Position numbers and translations under genes: made by a program. The notes beneath the pieces are model-generated. The model was not told where the DNA came from, made no database searches, and was given only the letters and a program-made list of their open reading frames with translations. Below are positions 3,600-64,000 of a DNA stretch of 64,000 bases, in pieces. The number at the start of each line of letters is the position of its first letter. Within the stretch, counting starts at the first letter, position 1. The stretch comes from Mytilus galloprovincialis (Eukaryota; Mollusca; Bivalvia; Mytilida; Mytilidae), in NCBI RefSeq assembly GCF_965363235.1, contig NC_134843.1:4154001-4218000 (forward strand), written 5' to 3'.

Positions 3600-4033
3600 T
3601 GACTTCTTATTCTTTAATGTATATATTGCTGCAATTACTTCTTTATCATTAATCTGAACAAGTTCTACAAATATTTTTTTTCCTTTTCCAATTGCTTAAA
3701 TCGTTGAATAATATTGTTATCAGTTGTATAGCAAACAGTCGTCTGCAAAAAGTCGGACTGACGAATTTACTGCATCTGGTAGATCGTTTGTGTGACACAA
3801 GAAGATGATGGGTCCTAGCACCGTTCCTTGGGGGGTCCGGATTCAACCTCAGTTTGCTCCTTTAAGTTGGACTCGCATTTTTCTTTCTGTTAGGAATGAA
3901 GTAAGGCATTTGGGGTGATAATTACTCTAATTCCATATTGATTCATTTTGTGCAGGAGTCGATCATGAGGTAAAGTTGATTGATTTGGAAAAATCCAGAA
4001 TCGCAATGTCTACCTGGTTTCCTTTATCGTATG
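3600..4033 (-). mobile_element. LINE reverse transcriptase, C-terminal part (decayed)
   Basis: The minus strand reads VDIAILDFSK just inside 4028, then [18 protein letters not shown] around 3790-3830 and [11 protein letters not shown] around 3730-3760. These are the palm motifs of a non-LTR reverse transcriptase, with FADD as the catalytic box, resembling Jockey/CR1-type LINEs. Stops and frame changes interrupt it, so it is dead. It is the downstream half of the LINE whose upstream half lies at 16804-19700; the two halves are separated by the integrase element at 4034-16803. Confidence 0.85.
4028..4033. repeat. Left target-site duplication of the integrase element
   Basis: CGTATG here is repeated exactly at 16804-16809, directly outside the two inverted-repeat ends. 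Removing the element and one copy of CGTATG makes the minus-strand LINE read straight through (LQSYDKGNQVDIAIL), which fixes the insertion point to the base. Confidence 0.9.
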
Positions 4034-4477
4034 TATGGAAGCGCATATGGTACACCCCTTGTAAAGTTATTTTGTTGCTAATAAGTCGGAATTATTAGTC
4101 AAGTTGTGTGTTATAAGCTGGAATCTTATCATCAAGTTGAAGTCAAGTTGTCGGAATGATGTAGAAAAATTGTTTTACAATGTCGACTTGCTGATATAAA
4201 TATAATGGCATAGTAATAAGAAGTCGACACGTTGAATTCAACTTATTAATTGATTAAGTCGACACAACTTGTTTATTTGATATTAAATCATCATGTTGAA
4301 GTCAACTTGTCGGAATGATGTAGATAAAGTTTTTATTACAATGTCGACTTGCTAATATAAATGTAAATGACATAAAATAAGAAGTCGACTTGTTTATTAA
4401 TTAAGTCAACTTGCTTATTTGATGTTAACTTTATTCGTTCTCACGGTCAGATTCCCACGGTCCGTATTTTACTTCCT
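4034..4477 (+). repeat. Left terminal inverted repeat of the integrase element
   Basis: The reverse complement of 16362-16803 matches this segment almost base for base. Inside it a unit of roughly 170-180 bp occurs twice: GTCGGAATGATGTAGA with TACAATGTCGACTTGCT near 4150-4195 and again near 4310-4355. The motif GTCGACTT/AAGTCGAC recurs several times and is a candidate integrase binding site. The match stops at ACTTCCT (4471-4477). Confidence 0.95.
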
Positions 4478-4494
4478 GTGCTGACACATTAAAG

Positions 4495-4545
4495 ATGGAG
4501 ATCGACAGCAACAACATCAGCGGGAGCAGTGGAAACGAGTCATAA
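4495..4545 (+). other. Possible 5' leader exon of the integrase gene, with a short upstream frame
   Basis: Seventeen bases inside the left inverted repeat lies a GC-richer patch with a 16-codon frame (ATG at 4495, TAA at 4543-4545), followed at once by a consensus splice donor GTAAGT (4546-4551). It could be the non-coding first exon of the integrase transcript, joined to the acceptor at 5226. This is inference from splice motifs only. Confidence 0.35.
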
Positions 4546-4944
4546 GTAAGTTTATATTTGTTTTCTTTGGAGACTTAGCGTTATATTTTAATATGAAGCA
4601 ATACTGAACACAAAATGAAAAAGATCATAGGGAGAAAAAACGTTATTGTTTGAATGAAAGGGCATTGAAAAGTTACAGTTTAACGTGACCTGTGATAAGA
4701 TCTAGAGTAAGACGTCTGCTATTATTAAAGATATATTCTTCTTAAAGGGTTTCACCCCTCTCCCCACCATCCCATCACAAGTACACTACCCGTTCTGTAC
4801 GACTGTCAATGAAAAATGGAAAAAACTGAATGGTCCCTCCCTTTCGCCTTTCAGAGTCCTTTGTAGATCAATCTCCATGACTCATTTAATTCATAACAGC
4901 TAAGCAAAAAAAAAATTAGTAATCTAAACAAATAATTTGATTCA

Positions 4945-5110
4945 CAACTAGCAGGGTGGATCTTGTCATTTATAAGGGTTGGGTATGGGGATCCTAGCCC
5001 ACGATAAAGGGGAGTTCCAACTATATGTCCCCATTCAATTGCATTGATCTTCCAAATAAATGTAAAAAAGGGTTCCAACCCCGGACCCCCTGGATTCGCC
5101 ACTAATGCCA
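4945..5110 (-). mobile_element. Small hAT-like MITE
   Basis: On the minus strand this starts TTAGTGGCGAATCCAGGGGG and ends near GGATCCACCCTGCTAG, the imperfect inverted ends of a common non-autonomous hAT-like repeat. Related sequence is seen at 39449-39800 and 45406-45540. The 90-residue frame over it is spurious. Confidence 0.5.
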
Positions 5111-5225
5111 GGTAGAAAAGCATGATGCGAAACGAAATATGTGTTCACTTTATTTTGATATTGACCGATTAGAAGATTTTGCTATTCATTAAACATTTCA
5201 ATTGAAGAAATATCGTCTATTTCAG

Positions 5226-5289
5226 CTGCTTGGTCACCTGCCCGTCTAATAAATGGTCAAAGACTATGGAATCAAGCAATATTTTAAAG
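5226..5289 (+). other. Predicted first coding exon of the integrase gene
   Basis: A good acceptor (CGTCTATTTCAG ending at 5225) and a donor (AAAG|GTAATG, GT at 5290-5291) bound a 64-bp segment. An ATG at 5266 gives eight codons (MESSNILK) ending in phase 0. Joined to 5421-5457 and then to 6684, the frame stays open into the integrase frame. This is a prediction from splice signals and phase; no transcript was seen. Confidence 0.5.
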
Positions 5290-5420
5290 GTAATGTTGAA
5301 AGTAAAACAAAGAAATATGTTGCTGACATCGAACATCAAATCAACACACTTTGGCTTAAAAACAAACAAAATTTGTCAAAACTTTCTTGTATAGTTTTTA
5401 TAATGTTTTTCTTCATTTAG

Positions 5421-5457
5421 ACTAATCAGCTCCATCTTCGTGGAAAGTATGAAAAAG
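5421..5457 (+). other. Predicted second coding exon of the integrase gene
   Basis: Acceptor TTCTTCATTTAG ends at 5420 and donor AAAAAG|GT begins at 5458. The 37-bp exon adds TNQLHLRGKYEK and one base; that base plus GA at 6684-6685 forms a glycine codon, continuing as GIPYPGDDAS in the integrase frame. The phase match over both junctions is the main support. Confidence 0.5.
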
Positions 5458-6625
5458 GTTTAATACTGTATTGTGATTTATTTTTTGTAAAAACTGCACC
5501 TTAAACGGCCAAAAATTACAAAAAATAAAGGATTACCAAAATAGGAAAAATGAGCACACATTTACACGGCTCTAGCGAAAAATATAGTGAACCATGATAT
5601 AAAGTTTTCTTCATATTTTGTCTAGCATGCGCAGTAAAAGCGAGACATGTAGGTACGATTTTACAGGCGACGGTGAATATATGGCGTTAACATTGCAACC
5701 AAGTTTGCTGTTCATGTCTTTATCTCGTGAAGCATAACGAGTAAGGTTCTTATATTTAGGATGCAGATTTCCTACATATTGTTCTTGCCAGTCAGTCATG
5801 TGCCATTTATCTTTGACCTATTTTGAATGCTTGAATGACCCTGAAGAACTCTAATAGTCAATTTTGCAACCATATCTCAAGAAATAGAAGTCTAAGGTTG
5901 ATAATATTTGGCATTAACGTCTCCAACTACAAGGGGATGATAGTCTGAAGTGTAATTTTAGCTTTGACTTAGGTTGATGATATTAGACAAGGAGGTTCCC
6001 CACTACCAGGGGATGTCATTTTGATACCTGTAATTTGATCTTGGCCTTGTTTTTATGGTTGATTGACTTTGACAATATGCGACCAAATTTTATAAATTAG
6101 TCAATGATTGATAAAGAACTAGATATCATGTTTAAGGAGGCATGATGTTACAACAAATTTAGCAAAAATTGAAACATATTTTTTTCATAACAAATTTTAT
6201 TCATTAGGTACACTATTCGTTGTTTCTTTAAGATATGGTACAAAAATCAACCAAACAAAATAAATTCGTTTAGGCATCAGATGACTTTTAAAATGTTTAT
6301 TCGATTGCAATATGCTGGAAGAAGATATGTCCTCTTGTTTGAAAATGAAAACATGTTCAAATGTAAAAATATCATATGCTTATACCTGATACCTATAACG
6401 GGTAAATTTAAAAATGAAATATGTTATAAATATCGCCATGAAGATTTATTTTGGATTGTCAAAACTTACTGTGTATTTTTCCATTTCGTATTCCATTAAA
6501 TGTGAAGGCGCAGCGCATTTCCTAGTAGTTTTATAGTAAGCTGATGACGTCACAGTGAACACCCTATTTAGATATCAAGCCAATCGGATTTTTCATTTTA
6601 TCATTACATCATACGTGTAATTTCT

Positions 6626-7882
6626 ATGTTTATGTTTCAGTTACTCTGTTGTCTCCTTTGTGTTGCTGATCATGACGTTACAGGAATACCTTACCCAGGC
6701 GATGATGCTTCTGTGCCTGAACTAGTCCAATACTATCATCAATTATGCTACACGTCCCTTCAAATATGTGGATTTCTCTTGTTTGTTCACGGAACATTCA
6801 TGAGTTGTTCCATGTTAAAAAGACTTAAGAGAAGATTAAATATCAGACGGCGTAACAACCAGTCGCCATTACCTACAGTTGTAAGGACAATCCTGGCTTT
6901 ACACCGTAATGGCCTGTCTAATGTTGGATACAGGTATATGTGGAGGACTCTGGACATAGGCTTTGGACTTTGCGTCACACAATCAAGAGCAAGGCTTTGC
7001 TTAAGAACAATAGACCAACAGGGTGTACTTAACAGATCGCATCGAGTTCTTCGAAGGAGAGTGTACTACAATAGAGGACCAAAATATCTGATTCATGTCG
7101 ATGGTTACGATAAATTAAAACCCTACGGCATAGCTATACATGGGGCAATCGATGGATACTCTCGTAAACTTTTATGGTTGATAGCAAGTCCCTCCAACAA
7201 TAACCCCAGATATGTCGGTTACTGGTATCTTAATTGGATCAAACAAAGAAAGATGCTTCCAAGGGTTGTTCGATCGGATGCAGGAACAGAAAACGTCATA
7301 ATGAGGGATTTACAAAGATCGTTGCGACATAATCAAAACGATGAAATGTCGGGACAAAATTCTTTTCTCGTCGGCAGATCTGTTGCAAATCAAAGAATAG
7401 AAAGGCTTTGGGGTACACTAAAAACGAGTTTCACCCAGTTTTGGAGAAACCGTTTCCAGGATTTCCAAGACACTGGACTTCTTAATGTATCGTGTCCAGT
7501 ACATAAAGAATGTGTTCGATTTTGTTTCCTCTCCGTTATCCAACATCAATTGGACATGTTTGCTGAGAACTGGAACTCACATAGAATAAGAAGACAACGT
7601 GCTGAAGTTGTAACACCAAGTGGTATTCCAAATATGTTATACTATCAGCCAGAGTTCTTTGGTGGAAGAGACTGTTCATTTCCTTTACCATGTAACTTAC
7701 AAACAATTGACAATCTCATAGAGGAATATACAGATACCTTTCCAGAGCATGGCTGTAGCAATGAATTTATTAACATTGTCGAGTTGCTTACTGGAAACAG
7801 ACGAGATCAGTTTCCCATCATCACATCATACGATGACGCAGAGCTATTGTTTCGGACATTGATTGCTGCCTTACCGAATTGA
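6626..7882 (+). CDS. Integrase (DDE, retroviral-integrase-like core) of the large inverted-repeat transposon
   Basis: This 418-residue frame ends at TGA 7880-7882. Residues 31-80 form a basic helix-turn-helix-like region (KRLKRRLNIRRRN). The catalytic core reads HVDGYDKLKPYG (D159), VVRSDAGTENV (D218) and NQRIERLWGTL (E259): a D-59-D-41-E layout typical of retroviral-type integrases that catalyse DNA strand transfer in the nucleus. The C-terminal part (SHRIR, SGIPNMLYYQP) matches, from memory, the integrase core family found in many fish, cnidarian and mollusc genes. The first residues (MFMFQ) overlap a likely intron end; the real coding start may be in exons at 5266-5289 and 5421-5457, with an acceptor at 6681-6683, giving 419 residues. 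It is the only clear gene within the 4034-16803 element and looks whole. A cAMP-response-like TGACGTCA lies at 6544-6551, just upstream. Confidence 0.9.
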   Translation: MFMFQLLCCLLCVADHDVTGIPYPGDDASVPELVQYYHQLCYTSLQICGFLLFVHGTFMSCSMLKRLKRRLNIRRRNNQSPLPTVVRTILALHRNGLSNVGYRYMWRTLDIGFGLCVTQSRARLCLRTIDQQGVLNRSHRVLRRRVYYNRGPKYLIHVDGYDKLKPYGIAIHGAIDGYSRKLLWLIASPSNNNPRYVGYWYLNWIKQRKMLPRVVRSDAGTENVIMRDLQRSLRHNQNDEMSGQNSFLVGRSVANQRIERLWGTLKTSFTQFWRNRFQDFQDTGLLNVSCPVHKECVRFCFLSVIQHQLDMFAENWNSHRIRRQRAEVVTPSGIPNMLYYQPEFFGGRDCSFPLPCNLQTIDNLIEEYTDTFPEHGCSNEFINIVELLTGNRRDQFPIITSYDDAELLFRTLIAALPN

Positions 7883-8340
7883 ACATTTGCTATACATTTT
7901 TTATACAATAATGATTTTGCATAAACATTTTTTTAGAAATTAATTATATATATAATATAAGTAGGTTTGATATTTGGTTTTACCATACAAGAATTAAATC
8001 AAACAAAATTACTAGGAGTTACTATATACTGTTTCTTGGTCTAGATTTTTTGTTGTTGATTATGGTAAATATAAAAGAAAATACTCTCTACGCCTAGTGC
8101 AGCATGATACGATCACATTTATCAAGGGAACAAACAGTAGGGCAAGTGTTGACACAAAGCTCATGCCTGATTTGTAACGCCTGGTCTCGGCACAAAAAAG
8201 TTTGCCAATGGGATATGATATTCCTATGTTGATCGCATTCGTTTGAATGGTTTTGTTTCTACTTTCTTGTACTCAAGGATCTAGTTTAATGACAAACTTT
8301 TTGCGCCAATACTTTAGGATATGAAACAAAAGACTATTAA
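7883..8340. other. Non-coding sequence downstream of the integrase
   Basis: AT-rich sequence with a TATATA run near 7945-7965. No gene or clear repeat was recognised. Confidence 0.5.
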
Positions 8341-8900
8341 GAGGCTGTATCGCTCACATCAACCGTGGCTACATAAGCCAGCCCAATTTAGACCCCGATA
8401 TAATAGGTATGTTCCCCGTTATTGCCCATCAAGGATGGATATAGCACTGCTTGAAAAGTGTTCATACAAAAACAAATGTTATCAAGTTTGGTCTCAGTAG
8501 TTTTGTTTAAGATCTTTGATCCCCCTGGCCCTCAGCTCAGGGTCCAATGTTAAACTATGTTGTTAGTAATTCCTGCAATCTTGGGTTATAGTCTTGAACC
8601 TACCAGACATAGTTTGCCTGTGCATTTTAAAAGATCATTGTGACCAAGTTTCATTGTAATTTGCACTGTACTTTTAGAAAATATCTTTCAATAAATTTCG
8701 CCATATGGTATAATCTCAACTACGTTCGTCACTGGCAATCAAGTTGGATTGTACCCTGTCCTGCCGAACACAATTTTGCTAGAAGGCCATCCAATGATAA
8801 GTTTTGCTTCAATTTGCTTAGTAGTTTCTAAGTAGAAGATCTTTCTATGCATTTCCAAATAAGATGCACTTACACTACGTTTTCCGCGGGCGGCCATCTA
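8341..8900 (+). repeat. Old pearl-like remnant
   Basis: GAGGCTGTATCGCTCAC at the left end and the scattered GACCAAGTTT and AGTAGTTT blocks resemble a very diverged GCTCAC-family element (compare 27003-28258). Boundaries are uncertain. Confidence 0.35.
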
Positions 8901-9689
8901 CGATTGGAGACATACCTGACAGATATATTTATTGTAAGGATTTACTAGTAGTTTGTTTGCAATTAGTTCTATAAATTCTGTGTAAAAATGTGCTCCGTAG
9001 AGCGTAGCAAGTAACGACCGTATAAAGGGTACTTCGGGTAAGTGTTGACACAAAGTAAATGTAGACATATTAAATTGCTAGACTCCATCCAATTCAATCC
9101 TCCGAAAGGGCCAATCACATCTCTAGACCCGATTTGGGCCTCTTGTTTGTTGGAAACGATAAACTAAAAACTTAAAAAATTAAGTAAAACACAATGTATG
9201 AAATCTACAAAATAAAAATATAAATCTATAAAGTATACACATGTCGAACAACATTTTTCGTTTCATCAAGTTGAAGCATTTTCAGTCTAGATCCTTTTTG
9301 GTACTCTTCTTTTTCAAAACCGCCAACAAATTACATAATCCATTAAAATACCTTCATATGATTTCTGTTCCAAACATCTTCATCAAAATCGGACAAAAAA
9401 AATTGATTTCCAATTTGTTCTTGGTTCACCCCTTTTGGCCTTGTGTTTCTCAAAAACGGTAAATTCAACATCAAATATTTAAAACTATCTCCTACAGGGT
9501 CCAATGTGAAATCGTTGTTCCCCTCGGAGGCCTTGGATCAAACCAAAACCGGCCGAAAACAATTTGCAAAGGGAACTAGGTTTTGTTCCAATTGGTTGTT
9601 TTGAGCAACTGTTTAACTATGTTCCCGCTATGCCAGATCGTTTAAAAAGAATCAATACAAGAACCAATGTAAACAAGTTTGGTTCCAAT

Positions 9690-9775
9690 TGACCTATAAT
9701 TGTTAATGTTTGTGTCATTTTGGTCTTTTGTGGATAGTTGTCTCATTGGCAATCATACCACATCTTCTTTTTTAT
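9690..9775 (-). repeat. Fragment of the GAAGATGTGGTATG mussel repeat
   Basis: The minus strand begins GAAGATGTGGTATGATTGCC and runs about 85 bp to AACATTAAC, matching 2051 onward and 10977 onward. Only the 5' end of the repeat is present. Confidence 0.7.
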
Positions 9776-9834
9776 AAGTAAGTTCAGAGAAGATATTTGA
9801 ATGCATTTCATACAAGTGTGGCAGTTAGTAGATA

Positions 9835-10160
9835 GATATAGGAAGATGTGGTGTGAGTGCCAATGAGACAACTCTCCATCCAAATAACAATTTAAAAATT
9901 AAACCATTATAGGTTAAAGTACGGCCTTCAACACGGAGCCTTGGCTCACACCGAACAACAAGCTATAAAGGGCCCCAAAATTATTAGTGTAAAACCATTC
10001 AAACGGGAAAACCAACGGTCTAATCTATATAAACAAAACGAGAAACACGTATATATTACATAAACAAACGACAACTACTGTACATCAGATTCCTGACTTA
10101 GGACAGGTGCAAACATTTGCAGCGAGTTTCTGATTTAGGTCTGGCATATCTGGAAAGTAG
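9835..10160 (+). repeat. Mussel repeat, GTGTGAGTGCC subfamily
   Basis: Starts GGAAGATGTGGTGTGAGTGCC, includes GAGCCTTGGCTCACACCGAA and ends near GACAGGTGCAAACATTTGC. An inverted copy lies at 14342-14655, and shorter minus-strand copies lie at 23904-24040 and 48776-48975. It is a relative of the 2045-2440 repeat. Confidence 0.75.
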
Positions 10161-10971
10161 GATGAAAACAATTTTAAAACTAGATCATCATTGCTGAGTG
10201 TTATCCATGCCCGCCGTCATTTTACACCAAATTTATGAAATTTTGGAAGTCTTTTCGAATATTCTCTAGAAAATCTTCAATGGGTTTTTAAATTTTTATT
10301 GTAAATATACACACTGCAGTTTAATATTCATAGATCAGTAAAAAAAATATATTGTACTCTTGCATCCAATCACGGCGTTACTAAGTTGACTTCCTTCATC
10401 TGCCTTGGGTACACAAAAGGCCAACCTAATGTTGGGGAAATGTAATATATTGTAGTACCGGTTTCCCTTTAAATGATGTTTTAATTTATTTTTTTTTTAA
10501 TTTTTTTTTTACAAAACTTTGGAATTTGCCCAACAAATTTTGCATGCAGTATCACAATAATAATGATTTGTCCTCTGAAACGTCAAATATTACTTTTGAA
10601 TCATATATTTTCTTGTTTTCCAAAAACAAATGCGTTAAATTTCCATCTTAGAAACTGCCAACTTTAAGTTTGAGAGATTTACTCGAGGATGGTATTAAAT
10701 TTATGTCTTCATCAGTCCAATGATCCTTGATTATATGTGCATCGAAAATTTTAATAAAAAGAGTCACTAAATAACAAAATGATTTTGGTTTTGGGATTTA
10801 AAGGTGACTACTAACACCATAAATTGAGGTGTATACCCAATTAAAAGTGCTAAAATACAAAAATGTGACCACAAAACTTTTTATGAACAGAAAGAAATTT
10901 AAATCTATATACTAGTCTATCATTTAAAACAATTTGCAGCCGTGTTTTATTCCGGAACTGTTATATTATAA

Positions 10972-11175
10972 AAAAGAAGATGTGGTATGATTGCCAATGA
11001 GGCAACTATAAATATCCACAAAAATGACCCAAACATTAACAACTATAGGTCATCGTACGGCCTTCAACAATGAGCAAAGCCCATACCGCATAGTCAGCTA
11101 TAAAAGGCCACGATAAGACCGGTAAAACAATTCAAACGAGAAAACTAACGGCCTTATTTATGTAAAAAAAAAATG
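10972..11175 (+). repeat. GAAGATGTGGTATG mussel repeat, 3' shortened
   Basis: It matches the first 200 bp of 2045-2440 closely (GTACGGCCTTCAACAATGAG, then AAAACTAACGGCCTTATTT) and stops in an A-rich run. Confidence 0.75.
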
Positions 11176-13764
11176 AACATTAAACTGTTAACTAAGCGTC
11201 TCTTTTGAGATCAGTTGCAGTACTGTAATGCCAATTATATAAAGAGGCACAGCCTGGACACTGTGTTATGGCTGGACGACCTGATCACTATAAGGCATCA
11301 GCCACATTTTGTAGCTGGGTCCTAATAAACCAATACATAACTGAACATACAAAATGCGTTTACAAAGAAAGATACAAGAATAACAGATACTAATAACATC
11401 TGTTTCATTGTTAATTTTGACTCAATCAGTGCCCAGATGAAGTATAAAGTCAAGTATATTCAACTTTTTAAAATGAATACTTGAATGTTTTGATAACCCA
11501 AGTCAAAGTGGACAGCAGTTTATTAGCATTCACAGTTCTAACTAATGACAGCAGTTCATTAGCATTCACAGTTGACAAATTCAAGGCAATGGCTAGTTTG
11601 CATAATAGGCATTTCATAGCAGTTTATTTAGCCTTCACAATTATTAGCAGGTTTTTGTGACGAAAATTTTAAATGAGATACATGTACCCAAAAAAACTGA
11701 TGTCAGCACTGAATATTCATGAGAACTGGTATACTAACAGCTATCAATAATGCATATTCATACAAAGTGCTAAGTTGATTTTCTAAGCTATACATCAGAG
11801 AAACAGATTTCACCACTAATAACTCGTGTATTACAATATTTCTCCATTCTCCACAGTAAAATTTAAAAAAACTAAGAAAGCCTAGCACTTAAAATATTGA
11901 AAATTGACTGTCTCCAGTGGAGAAATATTGCAACACACTTGTTGCAGTGGTGAAACTATATTAATTCTCTTTCTCTTTTGGATTTAAACAAAAAAAAATA
12001 ATACACGTAATAATAATGTTACGTAATATGTAAAACATTGTATTATGTTTCCAAAATTATGTTTCCAATTTTGGAAACAAACTTCAGTAACATACATCAA
12101 CTTCATTAAAAGAGGGACGAAAGATACCAGAGGGACAGTCAAACTCATAAAATGGATTGTTTGGTCAATATTAACCATAACCAATCGGCTATTTGCAGCC
12201 TATGTTTACCTAATACTCCCTCCCCGTTTTTCAAGTCTTCAATAATGAATATGATGTATTTTTGTTTTTTAACAAAATCATATTAAAATAGTCGTATCTT
12301 CATTTTCAAATAACATCTTGCACTGCAAGTATATGATATTAGTTTATTACATTCCTGCCAACATCAACTATTCTATTTGAATAAACCAGTATCCCCCCTT
12401 TTTGGGCTGTCTGTGTGATTTCTGTTTTCCCCTACAAATTTATGTCAGAATATACACATGCATTAACTGTAACTTCAACTTACTGTACTGTGGGTTTGTG
12501 AATGCATTCCATTTAGCCTAAATTATAATTTATAATTGACAAAAATAGTTTTTCACTAGCAAGAATTTACACACAGTTTGGAGCCAAAAATGCACATTTG
12601 ATCATTCAAATGAAGGTTTACTTTCAAGCTGAAAACACAAGTCAGGTCCAAGCATTTTTATAACAAAGATTAAAATCCAATCAGCTATCTAACTGCTATG
12701 GAACTGCTGTCATAACTGTTGTCCAATTGACAACACTTTAAAAGGTACCATGACTGCTAAGAAATGGTCAAATTAGACAGGTTTTTCAAACTGGTATTAT
12801 ATGGAATGCTAAGAACAGCTAAAATAATGCCAAAAATATGAAGAAGTGGTAAATAACAGCTATTAGCTAACGATAGCAGTTCAGTTTGACTTGGTAAATT
12901 CATAGTTTGGGTGGAATTAATAAAGTGATGACTTCACCGAATATTAATCACATTTTTCTCAGCAACTACCCATCTTTGAATCCTGATGGACAATTCATTA
13001 TGTATTAATGCCATACCCTGGGTGCAATCAGAGAGCAATTAAACATTCACTTCCTCTTTATCGTGGACTTCATTTTATATGGCCTCAAACAGTTTTTGTG
13101 GTTGCATATTGGTATGGCATGAATTGTGAGATCTGTTCCTTCCTATGCCAATTAGAACCAAACTCTATCACAAGTATTCACGGATGGCGTCCTTAAAAAA
13201 TTGTGTCTGGTAGGTTCAATCTATAAGATTACTGCCAGCATGGAACATAGTTAAACATTGGACCATAAGGAAAGTCTTTGAAACTACTTGCCAAATTGTA
13301 ACCAAACATGGTCAAAATGGGTATCCAGAAGGTTCGGGTCCGATCCAAGATGGTTAACAACATGCCACAGATCTTAATTGAACATTTGAACTTAAAAGGG
13401 AAACACAATCTAAGATAGCTGAAAGTATTTGGCCAATAAGGATCAAAATTGATCATGGTGGTCCTTGGAATGTAACCTTTTTATGCAGTTAAGCTGCTTT
13501 ATGCAAGCACCCTGGATTTGTGTTCTACCCAATAAATGCTGAAATACTTGCCATTGTCCTTATCTAGCTGGTAACTTTGCTATTTATAACTTAAAGGATA
13601 GTTTTTTAATACTTTTCGTTCTGGATTACAAAAGATATGACCAGAAAAACCTTAAATGATCGATTTTCCCAAAAGTTTTGAAGTTGCACATAGGAAGTAG
13701 AGCACATTAGGATTCCTTATGTTGTTTATAATCCCCCGAGTCGAAACAGTCGAGATCCCCACCT
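11176..13764. other. Interior of the integrase element without recognisable genes
   Basis: Contains a short duplication (GACAGCAGTTTATTAGCATT-like text near 11512 and again near 11550), a minus-strand scrap of a mussel repeat near 12110-12150 (GGACGAAAGATACCAGAGG), and at 13200-13620 a repeat-like block that resembles 15600-15960. Frames here are short and show no family motif. Confidence 0.45.
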
Positions 13765-14220
13765 TTAAATTAAACCATATATATTCATGATTGAGAACTA
13801 ATCAAATGAAATATAGGGAGAGTCCTTAGGGTCACCCTACAAACTCCTGTTTGATAACTTAGAAACAGAAATTTATATCCAAAATTTTCCACTTTATTTC
13901 ATCTAGATTATAAGTCTGCTAGTCACTGATTTTTCAAATAATGCTTCCTCAACCATATATATCCATGTATTGGACAACATAACAAATCAAATGAAATATA
14001 CTAGGATCATCCCACCCCTCCTGTTTGAAAACTTGATAACGATTGAGATCCCCACCCCAAACCATATATATGCATGTATGGGACAAGATACAAAAACATT
14101 AAATGAAATATTAGGGCAGTCCCTAGGGTCACCCCATCCCCTCTTGTGTGTGTTTTGAGAACTTGTAAAAGATTGAAAAACCAACTCCTAAACTAAATCA
14201 TATTCATTCCTGTTTGTCAT
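13765..14220. repeat. Diverged tandem repeat, about three units
   Basis: The phrases AACCATATATATCCATGTAT, AAATGAAATATA and GATCCCCACC recur around 13780, 13955 and 14055, each followed by a short C-rich stretch. Unit length is irregular, so it is an old array. Confidence 0.45.
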
Positions 14221-14341
14221 TTCAAAAAGATTGAATGACATACAATGTCAATCTCATAGGCGTCACATATGCATGTCTTTCTATGTTGTGATGTTATGCT
14301 ATTGTTTCTGTAAAAGGGAGAAGGTTTGGATCCATTAAAAC

Positions 14342-14655
14342 GTTTAATCCCGCTGCAAATGTTTGCACCTGTCCTAAGTCAGGAATCTGATGTACAGTAG
14401 TTGCCGTTTGTTTATGTAATTTATACGTGTTTCTCGTTTCTCGTTTTTTTATAGGTTAGACCGTTGGTTTTCCCGTTTGAATGGTTTAACACTAGTAATT
14501 TTGGGGCCCTTTATAGCTTGTTGTTTGGTGTGAGCCAAGGATCCGTGTTGAAGGCCGTACATTGACCTATACTGATTTACTTTTTTGAAATTGTTATTTG
14601 GATGGAGCGTTGTCTCATTAGCAGTCACACCATATCGTCCTATATCTATGTCACT
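14342..14655 (-). repeat. Mussel repeat, GTGTGAGTGCC subfamily, inverted copy
   Basis: The reverse complement of this segment matches 9835-10160 over nearly its full length, with ends GGACGATATGGTGTGACTGC and GTGCAAACATTTGCAGCG. The two copies face each other inside the integrase element. Confidence 0.75.
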
Positions 14656-15964
14656 TTGATAGACCTAACCAACGTGTACTAGATCTTGCCCAATTTTCGG
14701 TGACCATAGGAATGAATAATTATTGAAGTTTTGTTTGAAAGACTTCATAACAGCATTATGTAACAATATTTTTTTTTGATAATTGTAAAATTTTATTGAT
14801 GGAAAATAATTAGTAGGTTTAAAGAATTTCCCTTAATTATAATTTGAATTATTACTGGTCCTATAAAAATTTGCATTTTCATATGGCTCATTATAAAGAA
14901 AACATATCTTTCAAGCCCAAGAATGTTTGACCAACTGTTTTTATAATTACCTGCCATTTTATTCCAAACTCTGACATCATAAACTTGGGGTTAAGGTGGG
15001 GGACATTAACATTTACTATGGACAGGTTAGTCAGACCTCACCTTTGATCCTTGTAGTAGTAAACATTTGTCTGATTTGTGTCTCATAACTTTTGTACTGT
15101 TGAACACAGACTCAGTTTTCTTTCCAGGGAAGCAAGTCCATTCATACTTTTACGAGCTCTTACTAAAGGCAACTTGAACTACTAACAGTCAACTTATACC
15201 AACGTTAACTATCAACTAGAAGAACTACAATCATTGCAAACTTGTACCACTGCAGACTCATTACCATGAAAAAAATATACTTGATATATGCGATGCTTTT
15301 AAAACTTTGACAAAATATGAATTATTTGCCTTAATGATTAATTCATTAAATGAACATAAATGTACAATATATGACTGTCTAATGTTTGTTCATTTTAAAA
15401 AAATCTTTAAAAAAATTGAAGCAACATTGCCACAGTTTTTATAATTATGTTTGGCTTGGTTTTTGGTTAACTGCCTACAGCGCTTACGGTGCTTTGATTA
15501 AATTATGTCAGCAGTTTATGGTACCATCCAAGATTACCGCAAGAGGGAAACATTAAAACATTCGACCCTATAGGAAACATTCAAAGATATTTTCCAAGAT
15601 GACCAACAGCTGTTAACAGAGTTTAACATTTAAACCTATGGTAAAACTTTCACAATTGTTTCCCTCTGGAACTAAATGGTCAATTAGAACCATATTTGGT
15701 CTCAACGACTCTTAAATGGTACCCTTTGAAAATTGTGTTCGACAGGTCAAGGTCCGTTCCAGTACATATCATACATCATGGAACTTAGTTTAACAATGGA
15801 CCTTTAATAAGGAAAAATACTTCACAGATCTTTTCTGAAACTTAGTCACAATGGTCCTTGGATCACTTGCTTTAAAATGTTAGTCCAGTAAGTTCGTTTC
15901 TAAACAAAAATTGTTGACAACATACATGTAACATATCAAAACATAACAGGACCTTAACATTGAA

Positions 15965-16325
15965 GAATCTTTTCCTCTGAAATTACTTGGCCAATGGGGT
16001 TATTGAGTGCAAACAATACATTTTCTTTTAAGATAGGGTTGTTGTATATCAAATGAAAGGTCATGATATGAACATATGAAATATCAAATTCCCGACCTCC
16101 AAAAATAAGTTGAATAGGGTTATTAAGTGCAAAAATCAAACTTTATAGAACATGGAGTTGTCGCATATAAAATGAAAGCTCATATACTCTATGTTACATA
16201 TATCATACTTCCGATCTAAAAAAAAATAGGCGGATGAGACCATTAAGTGTTATAAGCGAAAAGTTTTAGAAGGTATGCTTGTCGTATATCAAACGAAAGG
16301 TCGTACAAAGTACATTACGAAAACA
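15965..16325. repeat. Tandem repeat, about three units of 120-130 bp
   Basis: GTTGTTGTATATCAAATGAA (about 16028), GTTGTCGCATATAAAATGAA (about 16157) and CTTGTCGTATATCAAACGAA (about 16278) mark three successive units, each with a nearby TTAAGTG or TTGAGTG. It lies next to the right inverted repeat of the element. Confidence 0.6.
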
Positions 16326-16361
16326 TCACTTTAACAGGAAAGACCTTTCAATTGTTTTACA

Positions 16362-16803
16362 AGGAAGTAAAATACGGACCGTGGGAATCTGACCGTGAGA
16401 ACGAATAAAGTTAACATCAAATAAGCAAGTTGACTTAATTAATAAACAAGTCGACTTCTTATTTTATGTCATTTACATTTATATTAGTAAGTCGACATTG
16501 TAATAAAAACTTTATCTACATCATTCCGACAAGTTGACTTCAACATGATGATTTAATATCAAATAAACAAGTTGTCGACTTAATCAATTAATAAGTTGAA
16601 TTCAACGTGTCGACTTCTTATTACTATGCCATTATTTTTATATCAGCAAGTCGACATTGTAAAACAATTTTTCTACATCATTCCGACAACTTGACTTCAA
16701 CTTGATGATAAGATTCCAGCTTATAACACACAACTTGACTAATAATTCCGACTTATTAGCAACAAAATAACTTTACAAGGGGTGTACCATATGCGCTTCC
16801 ATA
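16362..16803 (-). repeat. Right terminal inverted repeat of the integrase element
   Basis: Reverse complement of 4034-4477; the differences seen by eye are two substitutions and one missing AC dinucleotide. It ends CCATATGCGCTTCCATA at 16803, directly followed by the CGTATG duplication. Confidence 0.95.
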
Positions 16804-16809
16804 CGTATG
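16804..16809. repeat. Right target-site duplication of the integrase element
   Basis: CGTATG, an exact copy of 4028-4033. Confidence 0.9.
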
Positions 16810-33317: not shown

Positions 33318-35211
33318 AACCTTAGTGAGCACGCTCACATACCCCATGTCCCCACATTGTCATTGGAGAAATTAAATAAGTATAAGAAAAAATATTGAAT
33401 AATAATTTCCTGTCAATATACATAGTATGTCCTTATTATCTACAAAATTTCATGAAATTCTGTTGTGTGTTTTCAGAGGAGTTGAGATGACAAACTGTTG
33501 CAGAAGTACATTGAAGCAAATAAGTTCAAAGGGGCATAACTCCTAGAAAAAAATTGAACCGTAATTTCCTGTTGATATGCACATCTACATAGTATGTCCT
33601 TATTATCTACAAAGTTTCATGAAATTCTGTTGTGTGGTTTGAGAGGAGTTGTGATGACAAACTGTTGCAGTAATACATTAAAGTAAATAAGTTCAAAGGG
33701 GCATAACTCCTAGAAAAAAAATTGAATCGCAATTTCCCGTCGATATGCACAACTACATAGTATGTCCTTATTATCTGAAAAGGTTTCATGAAATTCTGTT
33801 GTGTGGTTTGAGAGGAGTTGCGATGACAAACTGTTGCAGTATTACATTAAAGTAAATAAGTTCAAAAGGGCATAACTCCTAGAAAAAAAATTGAATCACA
33901 ATTTCCCGTCGATATGCACAACTACATAGTATGTCCTTATTATCTGAAAAGGTTTCGTGAAATTCTGTTGTGTGGTTTGAGAGGAGTTGCGATGACAAAC
34001 TGTTGCAGTAATACATTAAAGTAAATAAGTTCAAAGAGGCGTAACTCCTAGAAAAAAAATTGAATCGCAATTTCCCGTCGATATGCACAACTACATAGTA
34101 TGTCCTTATTATCTGAAAAGGTTTCGTGAAATTCTGTTGTGTGGTTTGAGAGGAGTTGCGATGACAAACTGTTGCAGTATTACATTAAAGTAAATAAGTT
34201 CAAAGGGGCATAACTCCTAGAAAAAAAATTGAATCACAATTTCCCGTCGATATGCACAACTACATAGTATGTCCTTATTATCTGAAAAGGTTTCGTGAAA
34301 TTCTGTTGTGTGGTTTGAGAGGAGTTGCGATGACAACCTGTTGCAGTAATACATTAAAGTAAATAAGTTCAAAGGGGCGTAACTCCTAGAAAAAAAATTG
34401 TATCGCAATTTCCGGTAGATATGCACAACTACATAGTATGTCCTTATTATCTGAAAAGGTTTCGTGAAATTCTGTTGTGTGGTTTGAGAGGAGTTGCGAT
34501 GACAACCTGTTGCAGTAATACATTAAAGTAAATAAGTTCAAAGGGGTGTAACTCCTAGAAAAAAAATTGAATCGCAATTTCCCGTCGATATGCACAACTA
34601 CATAGTATGTCCTTATTATCTGAAAAGGTTTTCATGAAATTCTGTTGTGTGGTTTGAGAGGAGTTGTGATGACAAACTGTTGCAGTAATACATTAAAGTA
34701 AATAAGTTCAAAGGGGCGCAACTCCTAGAAAAAAAAATTGAATCGCAATTTCCCGTCGATATGCACAACTACATAGTATGTCCTTATTATCTGAAAAGGT
34801 TTCGTGAAATTCTGTTGTGTGGTTTGAGAGGAGTTGCGATGACAACCTGTTGCAGTAATACATTAAAGTAAATAAGTTCAAAGGGGTGTAACTCCTAGAA
34901 AAAAAATTGAATCGCAATTTCCCGTCGATATGCACAACTACATAGTATGTCCTTATTATCTGAAAAGGTTTCGTGAAATTCTGTTGTGTGGTTTGAGAGG
35001 AGTTGTGATGACAAACTGTTGCAGTAATACATTAAAGTAAATAAGTTCAAAGGGGCGCAACTCCTAGAAAAAAAAATTGAATCGCAATTTCCCGTCGATA
35101 TGCACAACTACATAGTATGTCCTTATTATCTGAAAAGGTTTCGTGAAATTCTGTTGTGTGGTTTGAGAGGAGTTGCGATGACAAGAAACAGGACTGATGG
35201 ATGGACTGACG

Positions 35212-43783: not shown

Positions 43784-44950
43784 GCTACTGCTCACTGATG
43801 ATACCCCCGCCGCAAGTGGATAATATTAATAGTGTAAAAATATGAAAGTGTTCGGTAAACAGGAAGTTGTCGAGTGATGAATCTGAAAACGCATCACACG
43901 GTATAGCTGACTTATATAAATCCTGAAACCAAATTTCAGAAATCCTTGTATTGTAGTTCCTGAGAAAAATGTGACGAAAATTTTTAACTTGGTTATCATG
44001 TGTAAAATCATACAAGTGTTCGGTAAACAGGAAGTTGTCGAGTGATGAATCTGAAAACGCATCACACGGTATAGCTGACTTATATAAATGTTGAAACCAA
44101 ATTTCAGAAATCATTGTATTGTAGTTCCTGAGAAAAATGTGACGAAAATTTTCAACTTGGCTATCATGTGTAAAATCATACAAGTGTTCGGTAAACAGGA
44201 AGTTGTCGAGTGATGAATCTGAAAACGCATCACACGGTATAGCTGACTTATATAAATCCTGAAACCAAATTTCAGAAATCCTTGTATTGTAGTTCCTGAG
44301 AAAAATGTGACGAAAATTTTTAACTTGGTTATCATGTATAAAATCATACAAGTGTTCGGTAAACAGGAAGTTGTCGAGTGATGAATCTGAAAACGCATCA
44401 CACGGTATAGCTGACTTATATAAATCCTGAAACCAAATTTCAGAAATCCTTGTATTGTAGTTCCTGAGAAAAATGTGACGAAAATTTTTAACTTGGTTAT
44501 CATGTGTAAAATCATACAAGTGTTCGGTAAACAGGAAGTTGTCGAGTGATGAATCTGAAAACGCATCACACGGTATAGCTGACTTATATAAATGTTGAAA
44601 CCAAATTTCAGAAATCATTGTATTGTAGTTCCTGAGAAAAATGTGACGAAAATTTTCAACTTGGCTATCATGTGTAAAATCATACAAGTGTTCGGTAAAC
44701 AGGAAGTTGTCGAGTGATGAATCTGAAAACGCATCACACGGTATGGCTGACATATATAAATGTTGATACCAAATTACAGAAAGGGTGGATGTGTAGTTCC
44801 TGAGAAAAATGTGACGAAAGTTTCATGGGACGGACTGACTGACGGACGGACTGACGGACTGACGGACTGACGGACTGATGGACGGACTGACGGACGGACA
44901 GACAGAGGTAAAACAGTATACCCCCCCTTTTTTAAAGCGGGGGTATAATT
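43784..44950 (+). mobile_element. Pearl-like element with six 168-bp core units
   Basis: Starts GCGAGCTACTGCTCAC and GATACCCCCGCC. Tandem units recur at 43851, 44019, 44187, 44355, 44523 and 44691, exactly 168 bp apart. They are followed by GACGGACTGACGGACTGACG at 44829-44900 and the palindromic end TATACCCCCCC with GCGGGGGTATAA. Because 168 is a multiple of three, any stop-free unit stays open through the array, which explains the 322-residue repetitive minus-strand frame at 43785-44753. Confidence 0.85.
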
Positions 44951-63194: not shown

Positions 63195-63247
63195 CTGTCA
63201 TACAAGTGAGAGGTTTAGCTACATGAAGCTATAAAACCAGGTTAAAT
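63195..63247 (+). repeat. Interspersed repeat from which the minisatellite grew
   Basis: GTGAGAGGTTTAGCTACATG and AAAACCAGGTTAAATCCACC match 19015-19075. The tandem array begins inside this repeat. Confidence 0.65.
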
Positions 63248-64000
63248 CCACCATTTCTACATAGTAAATGTCTAGATACCAAGTCAGGAGTATGACAGTT
63301 GTTATCCATCCACCATTTCTACATAGTAAATGTCTAGATACCAAGTCAGGAGTATGACAGTTGTTATCCATCCACCATTTCTACATAGTAAATGTCTAGA
63401 TACCAAGTCAGGAGTATGACAGTTGTTATCCATCCACCATTTCTACATAGTAAATGTCTAGATACCAAGTCAGGAGTATGACAGTTGTTATCCATCCACC
63501 ATTTCTACATAGTAAATGTCTAGATACCAAGTCAGGAGTATGACAGTTGTTATCCATCCACCATTTCTACATAGTAAATGTCTAGATACCAAGTCAGGAG
63601 TATGACAGTTGTTATCCATCCACCATTTCTACATAGTAAATGTCTAGATACCAAGTCAGGAGTATGACAGTTGTTATCCATCCACCATTTCTACATAGTA
63701 AATGTCTAGATACCAAGTCAGGAGTATGACAGTTGTTATCCATCCACCATTTCTACATAGTAAATGTCTAGATACCAAGTCAGGAGTATGACAGTTGTTA
63801 TCCATCCACCATTTCTACATAGTAAATGTCTAGATACCAAGTCAGGAGTATGACAGTTGTTATCCATCCACCATTTCTACATAGTAAATGTCTAGATACC
63901 AAGTCAGGAGTATGACAGTTGTTATCCATCCACCATTTCTACATAGTAAATGTCTAGATACCAAGTCAGGAGTATGACAGTTGTTATCCATCCACCATTT
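63248..64000 (+). repeat. Perfect 62-bp minisatellite, at least 12 copies
   Basis: The unit begins CCACCATTTCTACATAGTAA and contains ACCAAGTCAGGAGTATGACA. Starts at 63248 and 63310 fix the period at 62, and copies look identical to the window edge. It lies in the WDR7 intron and continues beyond 64000. It is not a CRISPR array: there are no variable spacers and the genome is animal. Confidence 0.95.

Follow-up and report, generated by a model that had tools for sequence, protein, structure and literature searches.

Results

A transposon with long inverted ends and one transposase gene

The 64,000-nucleotide stretch of the Mytilus galloprovincialis genome analyzed here (the window; contig NC_134843.1, positions 4,154,001 to 4,218,000) contains, at positions 4034-16803, a transposon with long inverted ends and one transposase gene (Table 1). 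We consider it very probable that this element is an internally deleted copy from an IS3EU/GingerRoot transposon family, the common form of which is about 20 kb long and has two arms that exchange sequence. An earlier note, made from the sequence of the window alone, had described a 12.8-kb element with near-identical ends of about 444 bp, a perfect CGTATG duplication, a whole DDE integrase frame and no polymerase or capsid frame. The element is real and these features were recovered, except that its length proved to be a shortened one and the 444-bp ends only the outer part of an arm of about 6 kb. The two ends (444 and 442 bp) are 98.7% identical over 451 columns, flank bases counted, and the left end matched the right at 99% identity in a genome search; CGTATG was read directly on both sides. 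A frame at 6572-7882 (+) is open for 436 codons from stop to stop and contains a single domain, the PF24764 integrase core (E = 4.2e-34). Besides the transposase, the element has no frame longer than 102 amino acids, and the longest in 7883-16361 is 83 amino acids, a length equaled or exceeded in 193 of 200 dinucleotide shuffles (mean 110).

Joining positions 5266-5289 to the sequence from 6641 onward produces a 421-amino acid protein that starts like P0001, a Mytilus edulis protein with 97% identity to the query 6626-7879. In an alignment of 40 sequences, hand-picked from 120 listed relatives together with the window member, D154, D213 and E254 (exon 2 numbering) are invariant, with 40 residues between D213 and E254, and these are probably the catalytic residues. 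PF24764 matched all 40 sequences, HTH_21 22 of them (the window member not included) and PF00665 (rve) 15; the NCBIfam models for IS481 and IS3 each matched 33. No Pfam zinc domain occurred among the families listed for the 40 sequences, the HHCC motif itself not having been searched. A search of solved structures gave no match (one chance hit, E = 0.68), and among viral contigs none of five pattern matches encodes a relative.

A hydrophobic stretch resembling a signal peptide precedes the conserved domain in 41 of the 118 relatives (among the 120) that start with M, where other stretches of the same proteins gave an expectation of 1.4. Proteins with such a start, which would be odd for a nuclear enzyme, include P0001, P0010, P0036, P0038, P0047, P0054, P0087 and P0093. 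In part these starts look like splice-acceptor tracts translated from unspliced records; proteins from annotated genomes show them too.

The common form of the family

When the genome was searched with the left end, at least 43 matches were found (genome match counts given here are lower bounds), 27 of them at 97% identity or more. Of these 27, 24 are grouped in 12 convergent pairs with 19.0-21.4 kb between partners, two are the ends of the window copy and one stands alone on C8. The other matches consist of one at 86% (C9), 13 at 89-92% over the outer 245-247 bases only, and two short ones. Both ends were fetched for ten of the 12 paired copies (A-J), and eight of the ten are flanked by perfect 6-bp duplications, all distinct, while copy G has one of 7 bp. 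TATGG..CCATA termini are present in the window element and in all ten. The same ends thus recur at 12 further sites, with different duplications where these were read, as the note's picture of a recently moved transposon had anticipated. A local inversion-duplication was rejected because the further copies carry different duplications. The family looks like one that has recently been active by cut-and-paste transposition.

The longest copies carry two inverted transposase genes and a spacer without long frames. In copy A, inverted arms of about 6 kb, 99.4-99.5% alike and each with a transposase frame, enclose a spacer of about 7.6 kb. The arms of A, C, D, E, F, I and J diverge about 6020 bases in (~6020-6026), and the inner end of the window arm was set by this point; the fetched arms of G stop short of it, close to window-arm base 6015. 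Every one of the 12 full copies gave a pair of inverted transposase matches, not all of them whole and unsplit. The inner-arm segment is present twice in 11 of these copies and once in copy B, the window copy and the C8 copy; it also matched twice on C9, in an older pair, and weakly once on C14. Exon 2 is full length and free of stops in 16 of 26 instances (24 in full copies, one each in the window and on C8; C9 uncounted). The common, predominant form of the family is therefore a giant inverted repeat of about 20 kb with two transposase arms. The left arm of copy B contains an inserted 793-amino acid frame (L011:3735-6113, minus strand), the start of which resembles a retroelement reverse transcriptase by eye.

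The window copy matches copy A except for about 6.9 kb, made up of the second arm apart from its terminal repeat and the neighboring 1.3 kb of spacer. In its main matching pieces, the spacer remnant is 98-99.6% identical to eight fetched loci. Overlapping BLAST ends had suggested 14 bp of homology at the deletion junction; this was rejected on direct reading, which gave 1 bp. The window copy is thus a ~6.9-kb deletion derivative that keeps a single arm, the two ends and a transposase gene without interruption. The note had offered two explanations for the missing polymerase, a stripped relative dependent on others or a class of integrase-only elements. Only most of one arm has been lost, and no dependence is shown because the remaining transposase gene is uninterrupted. 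The class of integrase-only elements in the second explanation already has a name, IS3EU/GingerRoot (PMC10045372, PMC12730594).

Further relatives lie outside this group. Two of the short ones, about 3.4-3.5 kb long, C14:28672952-28676379 (L050) and C8:29069047-29072574, have the family's 17-bp tips and 6-bp duplications (GATAAG and GATAAA); L050, which was read whole, has no frame of 100 amino acids or more. They are likely to be non-autonomous partners. The older C9 relative has two inverted transposase copies with 86-91% protein likeness to the window; its DNA is 88% identical in the inner arm and 93-95% in the transposase, and its right arm was found without the outer part.

Table 1. Features of the transposon in the window.
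Feature	Position	Strand	Remarks
Left target-site duplication	4028..4033	.	CGTATG; sequence read
Left terminal inverted repeat	4034..4477	+	starts TATGGAAGCGCATATGG; subrepeats spaced ~159 bp
Retained arm	4034..10052	+	~6.02 kb, inner end approximate; doubled and inverted in other copies
Transposase exon 1	5266..5289	+	MESSNILK, then GT; spliced start matches M. edulis protein P0001
Transposase intron	5290..6640	+	GT..AG, inferred
Transposase exon 2 and stop	6641..7882	+	PF24764 core
Leftover spacer between arms	10053..16361	.	longest frame 83 amino acids
Deletion junction	16361..16362	.	1-bp overlap, read by eye
Right terminal inverted repeat	16362..16803	-	sole remnant of second arm
Right target-site duplication	16804..16809	.	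CGTATG; sequence read

Sequence exchange between the arms

Within one element, the arms differ at 22-34 positions in their first 5800 bases (copies A, C, D, E, F, G, I and J). These eight of the 12 full copies were compared at 53 variable sites, after removal of gapped sites, of sites with three or more letters and of those where the rarer letter occurred a single time; B and H were excluded because of large insertions in arms B_L and H_L, and K and L because only one half of each was fetched. Arms of the same element agreed in 366 of 424 cells. When right arms were dealt out randomly the mean was 302.6, and none of 20,000 permutations reached the observed value. Variants seen in a single element among the eight occupy both of its arms at seven sites in E and at two in each of A, C, F and G. 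Up to base 6015 the sides had no fixed difference (eight arms of one side against nine of the other). Copy G (L029, L030) carries an identical 383-bp insertion at the same base of both arms (0/383 mismatches), itself a miniature element with perfect inverted tips of at least 30 bp and a 9-bp duplication. These results show that the arms of one element copy each other and have exchanged sequence. Since the insertion splits both transposase copies of G, such copying can also spread damage.

Copies I and J, which have 31 and 35 differences between their arms, share 24 of these in the same state, and their 200-bp flanks are unrelated. If J transposed, a move need not reset the arms.

Inverted transposase pairs in other families

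Two further convergent transposase pairs, at C1:125.96 Mb and C1:57.0 Mb, encode proteins 44-53% identical to the window transposase. Within the pairs the DNA is 94% and 92% identical, respectively, in the compared stretch, while between families it is 64-79% identical in aligning blocks. The element at C1:125.96 Mb is bounded on its outer sides by TACGG..CCGTA, the terminal 40 bases being identical. Its flanks, GTCAAA and GTAAAG, agree at four of six bases, and its arms, the transposase excepted, are 90-94% alike. Inverted arms are likewise present at C1:57.0 Mb, where the ends were searched for and not found. A search for TA..TA termini in two other families was likewise negative, with one end located at C7:93.2 Mb and the ends at C4:90.72/C5:15.17 Mb not both located. 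Among 101 and 102 scored matches, drawn from 284 and 282 candidates, no other same-family convergent pair within 25 kb was seen by eye, so that two arms appear unnecessary for spread.

It is possible, and we put it forward only tentatively, that bivalve IS3EU elements repeatedly use and maintain a design with a transposase gene in each of two inverted arms, a palindrome-like structure in which gene conversion between arms keeps the copies alike. If so, the doubled-arm design would either have arisen several times or have been retained from before the split of families about 50% identical in protein, and arm-to-arm conversion could rescue or spread damage, in a build like that of sex-chromosome palindromes.

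Tandem arrays in the window

Three tandem arrays lie outside the transposon. A 168-bp repeat at 43832-44823 (5.9 copies, 96% matches) is open on the minus strand through 345 codons; a 169-bp array occupies 33419-35184 (10.4 copies); and a 62-bp array at 63246-64000 (12.2 copies, 100% matches) runs to the end of the window.

Discussion

According to PMC10045372, IS3EU families are bounded by TA..TA termini and in most cases make duplications of 6 bp, and the fungal IS3EU/GingerRoot termini are given as TAYGG..CCRTA in PMC12730594. The mussel family resembles them in its 6-bp duplications, in TATGG..CCATA termini that fall within this consensus and in an integrase-like transposase akin to IS3/IS481; filed by these sequence traits, it fits IS3EU/GingerRoot and not Polinton. 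Fungal members are described as having terminal inverted repeats of more than 30 bp, together with transposase, alpha-kinase and TET/JBP genes (PMC10045372, PMC12730594), whereas each mussel arm is 6 kb long with an entire transposase gene inside.

That the element could be a stripped, non-autonomous Polinton which kept its integrase and long inverted repeats and relies on complete Polintons is extremely unlikely, even though 6-bp duplications, long inverted repeats and an integrase core would fit such an origin, as would the rve matches. These traits are shared with Polinton/Maverick elements without being specific to them. Polymerase, protease, ATPase and capsid frames were not found in the pieces searched: seven of the eight fetched full-copy pieces (9.7-10 kb) have no frame of 120 amino acids or more besides the transposase, and L011, the remaining piece, contains in one arm a frame of 793 and another of 124 amino acids, neither of them scanned. 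For 20 of the 35 non-transposase frames of at least 58 amino acids in the window copy there was no Pfam match above the cut-off (six weak ones, best E = 0.019), genes of many short exons being possible. The termini and the IS3/IS481 likeness of the transposase, with an IS3-type helix-turn-helix in 22 of the 40 aligned sequences, point instead to IS3EU. Hence 6-bp duplications, long inverted repeats and an integrase are together insufficient for calling a Polinton.

A stronger contender, which we nevertheless regard as rather unlikely, is a composite transposon of the kind known from bacteria, in which two opposed IS3EU elements move jointly and the spacer is captured host DNA. It predicts what is seen, a spacer without recognized genes between inverted arms that each bear a transposase gene, and the KolobokP transposons offer a composite-like precedent, with long repeats at both ends and an abundance in bivalves (PMC9587614). 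KolobokP repeats, in the same source, are direct, measure about 450 or 660 bp and leave the transposase in the unique interior. A composite should also have terminal repeats at its inner arm ends; none was found in the window element or in copy A, though loss is possible. Nor did the inner-arm segment turn up as an independent, complete element with a single arm, the lone C8 copy not having been worked out. The lack of an inner terminal repeat leads us to favor doubling of the arm by end extension over fusion of two elements. The nearest precedent for end extension that we found is Galileo, a Drosophila transposon of the P superfamily, in which the long terminal inverted repeats contain internal repeats and grow by engulfing inner sequence, and the ends recombine (PMC3573991). 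Its terminal repeats reach about 1.26 kb in D. mojavensis and are longest only in copies without a transposase frame (PMC3573991); in contrast, the 6-kb mussel arms contain the transposase, and copies of this kind predominate.

The single arm of the window copy gives it the simpler anatomy of an ordinary transposon, and this form might be ancestral, with the two-arm form derived from it by end extension. We judge this order of events very improbable, for the window copy lacks 1.3 kb of spacer that lies beside the lost arm in copy A, its junction overlap is only 1 bp, its arm falls within the diversity of the other arms, and even the older C9 relative has two inverted transposase copies. Fold-back rebuilding of one arm at each transposition could account for arm likeness without gene conversion, and the narrow range of arm-arm differences in all eight measured copies and the lack of a fixed side difference are compatible with it. 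It is nonetheless improbable, given that the 24 shared differences of I and J survived a move into unrelated flanks, if J transposed.

Several observations weigh against the reading we prefer, a deletion derivative of a recently active two-arm IS3EU/GingerRoot family with exchanging arms. Its placement, a probable one, is carried by termini, duplication length and IS3/IS481 likeness, and the window member itself matches the IS3 model only at E = 0.0059. What is seen is recent movement, not activity today. Copy J has no target-site duplication, and its transposition is assumed. As for exchange, the right arm of C has five variants common to I and J that are absent from its left arm; the permutation assumes independent elements, yet I and J are near-copies; and in none of the eight copies do the stretches free of differences exceed the length expected by chance (P from 0.05, in copy A, to 0.83). 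The C9 transposase pieces are 93.3% alike mutually, compared with 92.6% and 95.2% to the window arm, so that there is no sign of exchange on C9.

Under the two-arm IS3EU/GingerRoot reading, the transposase would bind repeated motifs in the long ends, and the encoded enzyme would cut the element out and insert it elsewhere with a 6-bp duplication. The ~3.4-kb relatives, with their identical 17-bp tips, may be mobilized by the same enzyme. Exchange between arms would proceed by gene conversion or break repair and would not be an obligatory part of every transposition. The window copy probably lost most of one arm by end joining, as suggested by the 1-bp overlap at the junction, and in doing so retained the tips and the transposase gene.

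In a word search of the open literature (titles and abstract starts), no description of whole transposase genes in the inverted arms of a eukaryotic transposon stood out. The apparent novelty lies in the architecture, doubled transposase arms, in a superfamily that is already known.

Long inverted transposon ends are commonly regarded as arrays of binding sites. In the mussel family they include a whole transposase gene, this form predominates among the copies, and the arms copy each other, even to a gene-breaking insertion. The family offers a natural system for asking whether gene conversion inside a transposon prolongs or ends its life.

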